DNA of 64,000 nt, taken from contig SGYN01000006.1 of the NCBI GenBank assembly GCA_004321715.1, positions 1-64,000 on the forward strand, given 5' to 3'. Below are positions 45,419 to 52,748 of the stretch, piece by piece (position 1 is the stretch's first letter; each line of letters starts with the position of its first letter). The position numbers were made by a program, and so were the translations under genes. The notes beneath the pieces are model-generated. The model saw nothing but the letters and a program-made list of their open reading frames with translations. It made no database searches and was not told the DNA's origin. This stretch comes from a bacterium (lineage in GTDB: Bacteria; Fidelibacterota; Marinisomatia; Marinisomatales; TCS55).

Positions 45419-46402
45419 TTATTTTAGAAAAATCATTTTTTTGGATTGGCTAAAATTACTTGTTTGTACCATGTATACATACATTCCAGCAGATACCGGT
45501 TCCCCAATATCATTAGTGGCATCCCAGCGTACAGAATGATATCCTGCAGCTTGATTGCTACTTACAAGTGTTTTAACTGAACGACCCATAAGATCATATA
45601 TACTTATGGTAACCATGTCATTCTGTGGCAGGTTATAACTAATCTTCGTTGATGGATTAAATGGATTAGGGTAGTTCTGATTTAAACTGAACATTTTGGG
45701 TGTTGCAGCATCATATTCAGATACAGAAAGTGCAGTACTTGTAGCCGGTAATTCTACTGTATAGCCACTAGGTGTAGCTAGTATTAAAGTAAAAGCAGAG
45801 TCCGTGGATGTTGGTGCTAAAAATCCTGAAGCATATACAACTCCTGATCCACCACCTAGCGTAGCAAGCGGCGCTGAAAAGGACGCTACAGGTGTTGTTG
45901 TTCCGTGTGCTGTAACATCAATCGTGTAATCAGCAGCTGGCACCTGAAGATACCCTGCGTAGCTACCATAGCTGAGGTTCTCAACTAATAATGAACCATT
46001 TGCATAAATGTCTACTGCGGGCGCATCGGTTACTCCATGTAGCACTTTCAATGCGAAACTTTGACTATTTTCTGCTGCAGTATCTAAACTAGAAGCTTTT
46101 AAGTCAAATGGTGTATCTGCATTATTAAGTATGCCTGATGCAGTAACCACATAGGATCCATTTTCCATTAAAGTGAATGGAAACTCTGCGATTACAGCGT
46201 CACCTGTTGGTGCAATACCTACAGTCGTACTAACTGGCAGGTCAACTAAGCCAGTGCAAGCTCTGTAGCTTACCCCTTCTAAAGCAAGCGCATCATCTAC
46301 ATATATATCCACAACTGGATACGGAGAATTATGTATTATTTGCACTTGGGCTGTTTGCGCGATTAAAAAAGACGAAAACATTAATAACATTAGTTTTTTC
46401 AT
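45419..46402 (-). CDS. Secreted DUF4397 protein with type IX-like sorting domain
   Basis: A 327-residue exported protein. A signal peptide (about 1-15) is followed by two DUF4397-like beta-domains (VQIIHNSPYPVVDIYVDD at 20, and LKVLHGVTDAPAVDIYANG at about 118). The last 85 residues are a C-terminal sorting domain (NQNYPNPFNPSTKISYNLP ... GMYVYMVQTSNFSQSKKM). Such domains direct export through the type IX system in the Bacteroidetes/FCB lineage. Probably an adhesin-like or surface protein. Confidence 0.85.
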   Translation of the reverse strand: MKKLMLLMFSSFLIAQTAQVQIIHNSPYPVVDIYVDDALALEGVSYRACTGLVDLPVSTTVGIAPTGDAVIAEFPFTLMENGSYVVTASGILNNADTPFDLKASSLDTAAENSQSFALKVLHGVTDAPAVDIYANGSLLVENLSYGSYAGYLQVPAADYTIDVTAHGTTTPVASFSAPLATLGGGSGVVYASGFLAPTSTDSAFTLILATPSGYTVELPATSTALSVSEYDAATPKMFSLNQNYPNPFNPSTKISYNLPQNDMVTISIYDLMGRSVKTLVSSNQAAGYHSVRWDATNDIGEPVSAGMYVYMVQTSNFSQSKKMIFLK

Positions 46403-46669: not shown

Positions 46670-48127
46670 TTATTTTAGAAAAATCATTTTTTTAGTTTGA
46701 ATATTATCCCCAGCATGTATTTGATATAGGTAGATACCGGTACTCACTGGATGCCCAAAATCATTAGTAGCTTTCCATACTATTGATCTCTGTCCAACAT
46801 CCTGCGATTGATTTATAAGAGTTTTTATCTTCCTTCCCATCATATCATAGATGGTAATATTTACCAATGAACTTTGTAGAAGATTATACCGAATTGTTGT
46901 AGTTGGATTAAACGGATTAGGATAATTTGGATATAACATAAATGTTTTCAATAGGCTCTCGGTATCATTATAGCTAGCTAGAATGTTTTCATGAAATGCA
47001 GACTGCACAAATCGGTAAAGATATAAATGTCCAAAACCTACATACCAAATATCTTTCCTGTTACTTATATGTTCTAAATGAACCCAAGTAAAATCTTCAT
47101 CCCACTCCAGAATATTTGGATGAGTAACTAAATGATAGACTCCATTTGAATCGACAACATTATCAAAAGCAGTATTCAGCTCATTAATATTGGTTGAACC
47201 CCAATAATCTGAACTCCCTACTTCTATTGTAGCCCCAACAGGATCAAACTTATATAAATCATTATTCCAATTTGAAAAATAATTTTCATTATAATAGAAT
47301 AATCTAGATACAAGATATTTAGCATTACTGGTTGCACTATCAATAGCTGCATCATAGTCACCAAAAGGTGCTACCCATGCATAGACATACTCATTTATAC
47401 CTGAACGATTATGATTTAAAAGATTTAAATTATTTATTATATCTTGCTTGCTACCTGCCACCTCACCTTCTAAATCATTATAGGGAGCATAAGGGTGAGT
47501 TCTTGAGTGCGCTACTACTTCAATTAATCCATCATCAAGCTGAGCTTGAATATCATCCCATGTGTTTTGATTCGATATCCAACCAGTAATTATTGCAACA
47601 GAATACCATAAATTATAACTACGAAAATTTTGACAAGCCTGTATGAATTTTGCATTACTGTAATCAGCCCAATCATCTGCAGTTACGGTCACAACCGCTT
47701 CTCTATTATCATAATACTCACTCATACGCATGTAAGATGCGTTAATATTTTCATTAGTGCTATTTACTATTCTAATAAAAATACTATCTGAAATAATTGA
47801 AAATCCTACTGATATATACGCTATATTTTCATTATAATCAAATCGCACTGCCTCAATTCCATTAAAAAAATCATCATCAGTTTTTTCATCAATTAAATTC
47901 CAATCTTGCGCGCTTCTATATTTTCGATAGGCATTTAAATTTTCTAAACCTTGAGGTATGTCAAACTCGTATGTAATTGGATATGATAAGCCATAATCAA
48001 TATGAATTTGAGAATCGACTGATACTATTACCTCATTTTGTGCATCTATATTAATAGTTAGAATAGATGTATTCTCTTGACTAATTAAGAAACTATTAAT
48101 AATTAAAAGTGATAGGAAAATCTTCAT
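46670..48127 (-). CDS. Secreted polysaccharide deacetylase-like protein with sorting domain
   Basis: A 485-residue exported protein. Signal peptide at 1-16. The middle domain resembles NodB/CE4 deacetylases: VTVTADDWADYSNAKF (Asp), VVAHSRTHPYAP (HxxxH metal site) and YAWVAPFGDYDAAIDS. These would remove acetyl groups from glycans with a bound metal. A type IX-like C-terminal domain (NYPNPFNPTTTIRYNLL, KKMIFLK end) follows. Catalytic activity is inferred from motifs only. Confidence 0.75.
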   Translation of the reverse strand: MKIFLSLLIINSFLISQENTSILTINIDAQNEVIVSVDSQIHIDYGLSYPITYEFDIPQGLENLNAYRKYRSAQDWNLIDEKTDDDFFNGIEAVRFDYNENIAYISVGFSIISDSIFIRIVNSTNENINASYMRMSEYYDNREAVVTVTADDWADYSNAKFIQACQNFRSYNLWYSVAIITGWISNQNTWDDIQAQLDDGLIEVVAHSRTHPYAPYNDLEGEVAGSKQDIINNLNLLNHNRSGINEYVYAWVAPFGDYDAAIDSATSNAKYLVSRLFYYNENYFSNWNNDLYKFDPVGATIEVGSSDYWGSTNINELNTAFDNVVDSNGVYHLVTHPNILEWDEDFTWVHLEHISNRKDIWYVGFGHLYLYRFVQSAFHENILASYNDTESLLKTFMLYPNYPNPFNPTTTIRYNLLQSSLVNITIYDMMGRKIKTLINQSQDVGQRSIVWKATNDFGHPVSTGIYLYQIHAGDNIQTKKMIFLK

Positions 48128-48190: not shown

Positions 48191-49438
48191 TTACGGTTGA
48201 ACAATCCAGTCAGCGTTGTACACATCAACAAATGCTGGTGCAATTCTTTCTGATCGCCTATCTTTAGCTAAAGTAAAATAAAAGCCAATATATCCAGAAT
48301 CAGGACTATTTTTTCTACCATTATTTTGAGTTTTTCCTTTGCGTTTTCCTATTGATACCATTTCGAATTTTGTAAACTTATTCAACTCAACATTATATGA
48401 GGCATAACCAAGTAAATTTGTACTCATACCGTGATCAAGTTCGTAGCTAGGCGTCCAATCATTTTCACCAAGCAACCAAGGTCCTTTTGAAACAGCCATA
48501 GAGTTTCCAGTAATTTTAATTTCGATCAAACTGTTACGAATATCTTGTATTTCTATTTCAATTTTTGATTCTTTAATCTCTTGAGGTGCAAATGGAAGAG
48601 TTTGACCACGAGTATTATCTACCAGATGAAAACAGAAAAGGCGATTTAGCAATATTTCAGGAAGATTGTATATATCTCCTATATTAGGATTTTCTGGTAA
48701 CCAAAGACGTGTTTCCTGATTATCAAACCATACATAATCTCTATTCCATCGTTCACTTCTCTCTGATTGTATAGGAGGATCTGTAAATAAATCAATTTTT
48801 GATAAGTTAAGAACCATTCCATTTTCTGGATAACTATTTTCCCATCGATGTCTTGCTTCAGGGATTGAATTACTAGGAATATTTCGATCAGAAACCGGAA
48901 GCGAATTCCACATTTCTAATCCATCCTCAATCATTTTTAGTACATCGTCAGGATTAAGAGAATTAATAGAATTCAACAATATACCATTAGGACTGCAAAC
49001 ATAGATACCCTGCCTAGTACCTCCAACTCTTTGATAATGACCTTCATTTGCCATTTCCTGAAAAACAAAAGCATCTTCATCTTGGACTCTCTGCAGCCTC
49101 CATACTTCATCAGTTGTTGGAATAAAGTTTTTTGCAATTTCAATAAGTCTAGGATCTGACCAAACGAGCCTCCGGCCCGCAACACCGTTATTTCAAGTAC
49201 AGCCTAGTGGATGTCCATTCATTGCCCAAAGCAGCATAGGTTTTTGTTTTTCAATCGATTCAACTAAACCTTTTTGGAATGATGTACGCCATGGAATGAG
49301 TGTCCATGCTAAATCTTTTTCAGTTGGCTCAATAAAATCACGCCATTTCTGATAAGTTTTTTCTGTTAGACTGAAGGGTTGTTCAATATCTTTATTACAA
49401 CTAATTATAATGAGAAACGCGAATAATAATTTTATCAT
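48191..49438 (-). CDS. Candidate selenoprotein: lipid-anchored thioredoxin-like protein
   Basis: A 415-residue reading frame with one in-frame TGA (49193-49195) at codon 82, read here as selenocysteine. Both sides are open without frameshift, and protein quality continues through it. Residues 1-14 end in the lipobox IISC, so the mature protein should be a lipoprotein. The region before the TGA (QKPMLLWAMNGHPLGCT) looks like a thioredoxin-type strand plus active-site loop, giving Cys80-Thr-Sec82. The fold seems to continue through LVWSDPRLIEIAKNFIP and GIYVCSPNGILLNSI, and a beta-rich domain of about 230 residues follows. A SECIS-like hairpin lies just after the TGA. Alternative: a pseudogene or a sequence error. 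No recognised family. Confidence 0.8.
49164..49180 (-). promoter_or_regulatory. Candidate bacterial SECIS element
   Basis: On the minus strand a 7-bp stem (GCGGGCC/GGCTCGT, with two G-U pairs) closes a three-base loop GGA. It begins 12 bases after the in-frame TGA. In E. coli fdhF the minimal SECIS is also a 17-nt hairpin 11 bases after the UGA with a G early in the loop. SelB would recognise it in the mRNA. Confidence 0.75.
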
Positions 49439-49482: not shown

Positions 49483-49508
49483 AAAAAACCCCACAAATGT
49501 GGGGCTTT
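49483..49508 (-). terminator. Rho-independent terminator after HMA gene
   Basis: Stem CCCCACA/TGTGGGG followed on the minus strand by a T-run. It lies about 25 bases after the stop of the HMA-domain gene, and separates it from the selenoprotein candidate. Confidence 0.8.
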
Positions 49509-49532: not shown

Positions 49533-49856
49533 TTAGGAACTACCAAAAAAACGTCCCAAGAATGAACCGCTTTTCTTTTCTTCCGCTTTTTTATCACTCA
49601 CATCATAATCAGTAGCCGCATTAATTGCTTCCGCAAGTGCCTTGCTGTCTATTTTATTTTGATCGTAAGTGACTGTTGCGGTATTTTGATCAAAATTTAC
49701 ATCGCAGGTTTTTACACCATCAATTTTTTTGATTGCTTCGGTAAATTTCACTGGACAACTTTGCGCACACTGCATCCCTTTTACCTTATATTTAGCAATA
49801 TTATCTTCAGCGAATAAAAATCCAAAAAACATAAATATTATTAATGTTTGTTTCAT
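49533..49856 (-). CDS. Secreted heavy-metal-associated (HMA) domain protein
   Basis: A 107-residue exported protein: signal peptide (1-16), then an HMA ferredoxin-like fold (about 22-90) with the metal motif MQCAQSCP, giving Cys-x-x-x-Cys rather than the usual CxxC. The C-terminus is Lys/Ser-rich. HMA domains bind Cu(I) or other soft metals; the spacing change makes the metal uncertain. It has its own terminator. The selenoprotein candidate lies directly downstream, but no link is shown. Confidence 0.82.
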   Translation of the reverse strand: MKQTLIIFMFFGFLFAEDNIAKYKVKGMQCAQSCPVKFTEAIKKIDGVKTCDVNFDQNTATVTYDQNKIDSKALAEAINAATDYDVSDKKAEEKKSGSFLGRFFGSS

Positions 49857-51383: not shown

Positions 51384-52748
51384 TTATTTCAACAGCACCA
51401 TTTTCTTAGTATGTATATATTCACCAGTCTGTATCTGATATAGATATATGCCAGCGCTCACTGGTTTACCGTAATCATTGGTGGCATCCCATATTACTGA
51501 TGCGTAACCAGCGTTTTGAGTTTGATTTACTAAGGTTTTCACCTGTCTACCCAGCATATCATAGATAATTATGCTAACCAGACCGTTTTTTGGTATGGTG
51601 TATCGCAGTTTAGTAACTGGGTTGAATGGATTGGGATAGTTAAATATACCGCCGATACTATATTCATTTTTTGTTTGGACTGAAACATTCGCATCATCAA
51701 AAACTGATACTGCATCCAGCAACTGTCCGTCAAAATCAAATAGGGCCTGATTTTCCCATGGGCTTCCAAATTGGCTTGTCGAAATCCAATCAGGTGCCCA
51801 ATAACAGATACCATACCCAAAATCATTGTCATGTACGAGTGAAATTAAGTCATAAAGAAATGAAAGCTGACCCTCCTCGCTTGCTTCGTAACCATCAAGC
51901 AACTGAGTTTCTAAACCTAAAATATTATTTGAGTTATCATTCCAAGAAAGAGTAAAAGGATATGCGGTTTCAACTATTAATACAGGCTTTCCAAATTGAG
52001 TCGCAAGCATATTAATATTTTGGTTTAAATCAGCAAATGTACCATGCCACATAGGGTAGTATGATATTGCTAAAATATCAATAGGGATATTTTCCTCTAA
52101 TAGATTACTAAAGAACCAATTACCTCCACTACTAACATGTGAAATAATTTTTAAAGAATCTTCAAAATCCAGTGCTGTATTTACACCTTCGATGGCATGC
52201 ATGAATAAATCTCTTAGCTTATTCCATTGAATATCATTATTTGATTCACCACACACATATCCATCTGGCCATAAAAACCCGCAGTCTGTTTCATTACCAA
52301 TTTGCACATATTTTGGCAATGTATTTTGATTCTTCAATTTAGTAATAACATACCTGCTATATTGCTCAATGCTATCGCATAAAGTTTCAAAATTTAAATT
52401 TTCCCATGCTGCAGGTTTATTTTGATTTGATGGATCTGCCCAAGTATCTGAATAATGAAAATCTAATAATAAATCCAACTCAGCATTTTTTACTCGCTCA
52501 GCTATTTCAAGGACACTTTCTAAATCGTTATAGTTTTGTAGTGGATTGTGCCAAATTTTAAGCCTGACAGTATTAATGCCTTTACTATTAAATTCTTGAA
52601 TTGGGTCAATTTGATTCCCATTTTCATAAAATAAGCCCCCGTTATCCTCCACCTGTTTTAACATAGATAGATCAACACCTTTCATAAATTCATTGCTTTG
52701 AGTGAATAATAAAGAATTAATAAATCCAATTAAAAGAATTCTATTCAT
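51384..52748 (-). CDS. Secreted GH53 endo-beta-1,4-galactanase with sorting domain
   Basis: A 454-residue exported glycoside hydrolase of family 53. The barrel shows FMKGVDLSMLKQVEDNGG, NTVRLKIWHNP, LLDFHYSDTWADP, the acid/base Glu in QIGNETDCGFLW and the nucleophile Glu in VLIVETAYP. GH53 enzymes cut beta-1,4-galactan side chains of pectin. The last 85 residues are the type IX-like C-terminal domain (NYPNPFNPVTKLRYTIP, end KKMVLLK). It points to use of plant or algal galactans. Confidence 0.85.
   Translation of the reverse strand: MNRILLIGFINSLLFTQSNEFMKGVDLSMLKQVEDNGGLFYENGNQIDPIQEFNSKGINTVRLKIWHNPLQNYNDLESVLEIAERVKNAELDLLLDFHYSDTWADPSNQNKPAAWENLNFETLCDSIEQYSRYVITKLKNQNTLPKYVQIGNETDCGFLWPDGYVCGESNNDIQWNKLRDLFMHAIEGVNTALDFEDSLKIISHVSSGGNWFFSNLLEENIPIDILAISYYPMWHGTFADLNQNINMLATQFGKPVLIVETAYPFTLSWNDNSNNILGLETQLLDGYEASEEGQLSFLYDLISLVHDNDFGYGICYWAPDWISTSQFGSPWENQALFDFDGQLLDAVSVFDDANVSVQTKNEYSIGGIFNYPNPFNPVTKLRYTIPKNGLVSIIIYDMLGRQVKTLVNQTQNAGYASVIWDATNDYGKPVSAGIYLYQIQTGEYIHTKKMVLLK

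Follow-up and report, generated by a model that had tools for sequence, protein, structure and literature searches.

More than a hundred families of bacterial selenoproteins are already known, and a list from 2026 comprises 119 prokaryotic families (PMC13188914). Two bacterial members of that list, the thioredoxin-like Sec.1 protein (PF13192) and the rhodanese-like form 3 (NF041203), carry a C-x-U motif, and the former is thioredoxin-like (PMC13188914). Judged by its name, the Trx7/PDZ domain selenoprotein (NF041199) also joins a Thioredoxin_7-like domain to selenocysteine (Sec). In the GOS survey of marine metagenomes, every new selenoprotein family had Cys homologues (PMC2398784).

The locus studied here lies in the window, i.e. 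the whole 64,000-nt stretch of bacterial DNA that was analyzed. It almost certainly encodes one intact secreted redox protein with selenium at its active site, Sec being predicted at an in-frame UGA. Within the bacterial selenoproteins, a kind already known, it would form a new family, unusual in that no Cys form was found.

The Gene and Its In-Frame TGA

The gene occupies positions 48191..49438 of the minus strand. Its frame runs from an ATG (49438-49436) to a TAA (48193-48191) and comprises 415 codons plus the stop, giving a 415-residue protein if UGA is read as Sec. The frame holds exactly one in-frame TGA (codon 82, 49195-49193). A preliminary description of this DNA had reported a frame open except for one TGA, with no frameshift, and its coordinates proved exact. 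It had also held that annotation would fragment the gene around the TGA; standard ORF calling (table 11) indeed yielded pieces of 81 (49193-49438) and 287 (48191-49054) amino acids.

Exactly these two pieces would be expected of a pseudogene or split gene, in which the TGA either truly terminates translation or stems from a sequencing error and an 81-residue peptide is followed by a separate 287-residue protein begun at a later ATG. We consider this account extremely improbable, as 152 distinct relatives, drawn from many assemblies, share the identical TGA, and codons 83-128, which separate the TGA from the next ATG, are highly conserved under strong purifying selection. Nonsynonymous differences were several times rarer than synonymous ones both upstream of the TGA and in codons 83-128; downstream, they were likewise several times rarer in most pairs. 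Because nonsynonymous differences fall far below synonymous ones on both sides of the TGA, the stretch after it is evidently translated in the same frame. A TGA conserved within a conserved frame, which is a criterion for selenoproteins, was therefore observed (152 of 160 relatives, with purifying selection on both sides).

Gene Neighborhood

Neighboring genes were considered as a functional clue and rejected, the context not being conserved between loci. The upstream gene (49533-49856 of the window) codes for a small HMA-like protein that has a signal sequence and a CAQSC motif; a terminator-like hairpin followed by a T run is found near 49500, between that gene and the selenoprotein gene. 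Three neighbors (45419-46402, 46670-48127, and 51384-52748) have the common tail YPNPFNP...KKMIFLK, which we take to resemble the tails of type IX secretion sorting domains. A search of the downstream gaps for a second TGA gene revealed nothing clear.

Codon 82 among Relatives

The residue at the codon-82 site was read in most of the matches that span it, 160 distinct sequences from Neomarinimicrobiota, Planctomycetota, and a few other MAGs. The site was TGA in 152, Ser in six, Asp in one, Pro in one, and Cys in none. An alignment of homologues had been proposed as a check for Cys or Sec at this position; it revealed a conserved UGA and never a Cys. A Cys form is a usual, though not obligatory, trait of a selenoprotein family, and the customary argument from Sec/Cys pairs cannot be made here because no Cys orthologue was found among the 160 sequences.

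The residues around the TGA read G79-C80-T81-U82, confirming the Cys-x-Sec motif noted earlier. Cys80 (TGT, 49199..49201, minus strand) is the predicted resolving partner of Sec82, and its equivalent, two residues before Sec, is kept in 131 of the 152 TGA-bearing relatives. Some divergent members (L139, L131, L155, and L165) have kept the TGA and lost this Cys.

Several further arrangements were observed. Ser replaces Sec in two separate clades (L128, L129, and L133; L130, L131, and L132), and a Ser form and a TGA form occur side by side within genomes G385 and G266. Five very divergent planctomycete sequences (L217, L218, L220, L222, and L224, from G407, G282, G567, G321, and G438, respectively) have the TGA in another setting, for example RCU-VFAGAAREAVFS, with a Cys immediately before the TGA; from their sequences, these appear to form another Sec subfamily related to the main one. 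At L141 (G280:C42:49500-52800), two TGA-bearing paralogues lie in tandem with ca. 60 bases between them, and more copies are present in G280.

The SECIS-Like Hairpin

A 17-nt hairpin with a 7-bp stem and a GGA loop had been described 12 bases past the TGA, and this position is exact. The hairpin, GCGGGCC-GGA-GGCTCGT (49180-49164, minus strand), has seven base pairs (two of them G-U) and a folding energy of -9.8 kcal/mol; it starts 12 nt after the TGA, and 19 nt precede its loop. The published rules for bacterial SECIS elements (bSECIS) call for a stem of at least 4 bp, a loop of 3-9 nt with a G in loop positions 1-2, a location 16-37 nt after the UGA, and a minimum free energy of -7.5 or lower (PMC13188914). 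The hairpin of the window falls within all of these limits (7 bp, GGA, 19 nt, -9.8). Its energy is ordinary for a sequence of this makeup, 126 of 200 dinucleotide shuffles having folded just as well (z = 0.30), so the hairpin alone would prove nothing, and energy was dropped as evidence for a SECIS. A search of Rfam with the region returned chance matches only.

Synonymous sites were more informative. Among 59 codon columns with a conserved amino acid, the lowest synonymous entropies were those of codons 88, 92, 91, and 89, every one of which is inside the hairpin; the Gly88 codon was GGC in 38 of 38 sequences. The chance that the four eligible hairpin codons would be the four lowest is ca. 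1 in 455,000 by a simple count that ignores relatedness. In 56 close windows following the TGA, the pair +18C/+24G was formed in all, +16/+26 in 55, and +17/+25 in 53, and position +20 was G in all 56; the third stem pair (+15/+27) was unpaired in about one-third of the sequences. Over 144 distinct windows, 78% of the cells for the six inner pairs were formed, compared to 70% after column shuffling (none of 1000 shuffles reached the observed 78%, relatedness uncorrected), and only 33-43% were formed when the pairs were slid by 1-3 nt.

The bSECIS geometry was found in all 144 distinct post-TGA windows and in 199 of 288 shuffled ones (69%), again uncorrected for relatedness. With the addition of the energy threshold (≤ -7.5 kcal/mol), the figures were 111 of 144 (77%) and 27%, respectively. 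Hence the SECIS check that had been suggested came out in favor of the element, with the geometry in every window and selection on synonymous sites at the hairpin.

Selenocysteine Machinery

The SelD gene of the window's own genome (L092, G000:C42:3173-4099, minus strand) contains an in-frame TGA of its own, in the usual position (HGSGU-ACK). Conventional annotation would break this gene too because of that codon, and its presence indicates that the lineage uses Sec. SelA, SelB, and tRNA-Sec above cut-off were not found in this MAG, which is 67% complete. All three were present in five of five congeners searched. In several congeners selC is on a different contig from selA-selB, so two separate loci would have to be absent from the MAG; that its incompleteness accounts for this is plausible, not certain. 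The tRNA-Sec model gave weak matches in nearly all genomes, Sec-free controls included, and thus only matches above cut-off were counted.

SelB was above cut-off in all 37 other tested genomes that hold the gene. Among 392 planctomycete genomes, a strong SelA was found in 86 of the 90 that have the TGA gene and in 159 of the 302 that do not (Fisher p = 3.7e-16, uncorrected for phylogeny). A search for the Sec genes in the same genome, as proposed at the outset, was thus borne out in part: the Sec-containing SelD, the five congeners, and the 37 genomes with SelB speak for the machinery, and SelA, SelB, and tRNA-Sec were not found in the MAG itself.

An amino acid other than Sec might be inserted at the UGA, by near-cognate suppression or under a reassigned code. 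The Ser, Asp, and Pro of the non-TGA paralogues and the lack of the usual Cys signature would suit such decoding. Nevertheless, we judge it very improbable. TGA terminates eight of the 43 window ORFs of at least 200 amino acids, so the code is not reassigned; moreover, the gene is found together with SelA and SelB, the downstream hairpin with its early-loop G is under synonymous-site constraint, and the SelD of this genome is itself a standard Sec gene. Insertion of Sec, inferred in the preliminary description, we still infer, now with support from the conservation of the UGA, the constraint on the hairpin, and the co-occurrence with Sec genes.

Predicted Fold and Export, and Proposed Mechanism

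The N-terminus (49394..49438, minus strand) is hydrophobic and appears to be a signal peptide with a lipobox-like IISC; Cys14 of this motif was invariant across the first eight orthologues aligned. To judge from such N-termini, most Neomarinimicrobiota members look like lipoproteins, and many planctomycete members look as if they bear a plain signal peptide.

AlphaFold2, supplied with 40 relatives, modeled the protein with a pLDDT of 92.0 for the whole chain and 92.5 for residues 24-184. Those residues (48887..49369, minus strand) form a predicted thioredoxin-fold domain that contains the C-x-U site. When they were submitted to Foldseek, thioredoxin folds were returned, the best being 3f9u (E 1.5e-5, probability 1.00), with further matches to AGR2/AGR3, DsbH, DsbD-gamma, and ERp18. 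The preliminary description's "thioredoxin-like loop", initially a guess, therefore now has the support of structure prediction. The predicted order is a strand (68-73), NGHPLGCT, Sec82, and a helix (83-92). In this predicted order, Sec82 stands at the N-terminal end of the active-site helix that comes after the first strand, where a thioredoxin fold carries its active residue; in thioredoxin itself, the attacking Cys has this position. Invariant residues near Sec82 are W71, M73, N74-G75-H76-P77, T81, N84, G85, and R89. Judging from the alignment, the loop that leads into the next strand seems to be T-R/K/W-Q-G, lacking the usual cis-proline.

The remainder of the protein (residues 185-415; 48194..48886, minus strand) is modeled as a largely beta domain, for which a Foldseek search of the PDB with the full model gave weak matches, none convincing. 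In one A2 member (L069:4374-5633), the C-terminal half instead matches SCO1/SenC (E 1.7e-17), the usual beta domain being replaced; this may be a fusion or an effect of assembly.

Taken together, the gene is very probably an intact selenoprotein gene whose UGA82 is decoded as Sec by means of SelB and the hairpin, and whose product would be an exported thioredoxin-like oxidoreductase. SelB carrying Sec-tRNA-Sec would bind the hairpin 12 nt past UGA82, and the ribosome would insert Sec there rather than terminate. The product would then be exported, in this organism as a lipoprotein according to its signal sequence, and would fold like thioredoxin, with Sec82 at the start of the active-site helix and Cys80 two residues earlier. 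From the fold and the motif, the protein is most likely an extracytoplasmic oxidoreductase in which the selenol of Sec82 makes the attack; Cys80 would resolve Sec82 as a selenenylsulfide, and relatives that have no equivalent of Cys80 would need an external thiol.

Distribution and Evolution

Relatives of the window's genome are Candidatus Neomarinimicrobiota MAGs. In ca. 100 near genomes, seven matches besides its own had exactly one in-frame TGA (six were near full length, and one was ended by the contig end); one further genome had a C-terminal fragment only. Across the phylum, the gene was found in 14 of 245 genomes, the window's own included, and full-length relatives were 55-64% identical. 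An alignment-profile scan of ca. 85,000 species genomes located 59 loci, mostly in Planctomycetota; a scan of genome contigs with single-sequence patterns gave no loci, the patterns being too specific. Members or fragments were found in 104 of 392 sampled planctomycete genomes, and viral contigs and plasmids that were searched contained none.

In a tree of 75 sequences, the Neomarinimicrobiota formed one clade nested within planctomycete diversity (100/100; midpoint root), which fits one transfer into the marine Neomarinimicrobiota. The Ser forms fell into two separate, well-supported groups, and the Asp form was elsewhere.

These patterns raise the idea, to which we give even chances, of a Sec-obligate thioredoxin-fold family: Sec would be kept even where the neighboring Cys is gone, and where it was lost it would have given way to Ser or Asp, with loss of the redox centre, and never to Cys. 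If so, chemistry not easily done by sulfur would be the task of a protein that is found in about a quarter of the sampled Planctomycetota genomes and would have passed once to marine Neomarinimicrobiota. As Sec- and Ser-bearing paralogues share a family, and sometimes a genome, they lend themselves to asking, in a natural setting, why Sec is retained in preference to Cys. With this family, the biology of uncultured marine bacteria also gains a redox protein that is widespread and probably extracytoplasmic.

Comparison with Known Families

The family is large, occurs in marine and other uncultured bacteria, and has apparently gone undescribed so far. Searches for bacterial selenoproteins mostly begin with Cys homologues, and standard gene callers halt at UGA. 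A family without Cys forms would escape both approaches, which would explain how one found in 104 of 392 planctomycete genomes went unlisted. In Pfam, NCBIfam (June 2026), and the PDB sequences, no family match was found save the SCO1 match of the one member. For Pfam Thioredoxin_7 (PF13899), three of 40 members gave matches (best E 0.078), short of the curated cut-off, and the window's protein gave none. Even with an E limit of 10, the window's protein retrieved no selenoprotein model from NCBIfam, and none of the 40 members reached the cut-offs of such models (e.g. NF041199, NF041374, NF045500, and NF041198). No counterpart was evident among the 119 listed families (PMC13188914). Searches of the freely available literature on selenoproteins of Marinimicrobia/Neomarinimicrobiota and planctomycetes turned up no description; planctomycete candidates are given in the supplement of PMC4807772, where an earlier mention is possible.

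The family could be known by another name, such as the marine metagenome GOS_B or GOS_C, Trx7/PDZ, or UshA-like families. In favor of this, several of the families on the list carry CxU or CxxU motifs or are thioredoxin-like, and the earlier surveys drew on marine data. We think this unlikely, given that none of 40 members matched any NCBIfam model at E < 0.1 and that the GOS families had Cys homologues, whereas none were found here.

Compared to PF13192 and NF041203, with which the C-x-U motif is shared, there is no sequence match, and the present protein has ca. 415 amino acids and an extra beta-rich domain, and has no Cys forms among the sequences found. NF041199 gave no hmmscan match; it has CxxU, while the present family has CxU, and no PDZ domain was found in it. 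The Sec-containing SelD (TIGR00476), likewise encoded with an in-frame TGA in this genome, is an unrelated protein. A further likeness is to the Thioredoxin_7, DsbH, DsbD-gamma, and AGR2/AGR3 folds (PF13899; 3f9u, 3ph9, 9i3u, 2ju5, and 1uc7), which resemble the predicted fold of residues 24-184 and the position of its active site; sequence identity to them is 10-17%, and the present family has GHPLGCTU in place of CxxC.
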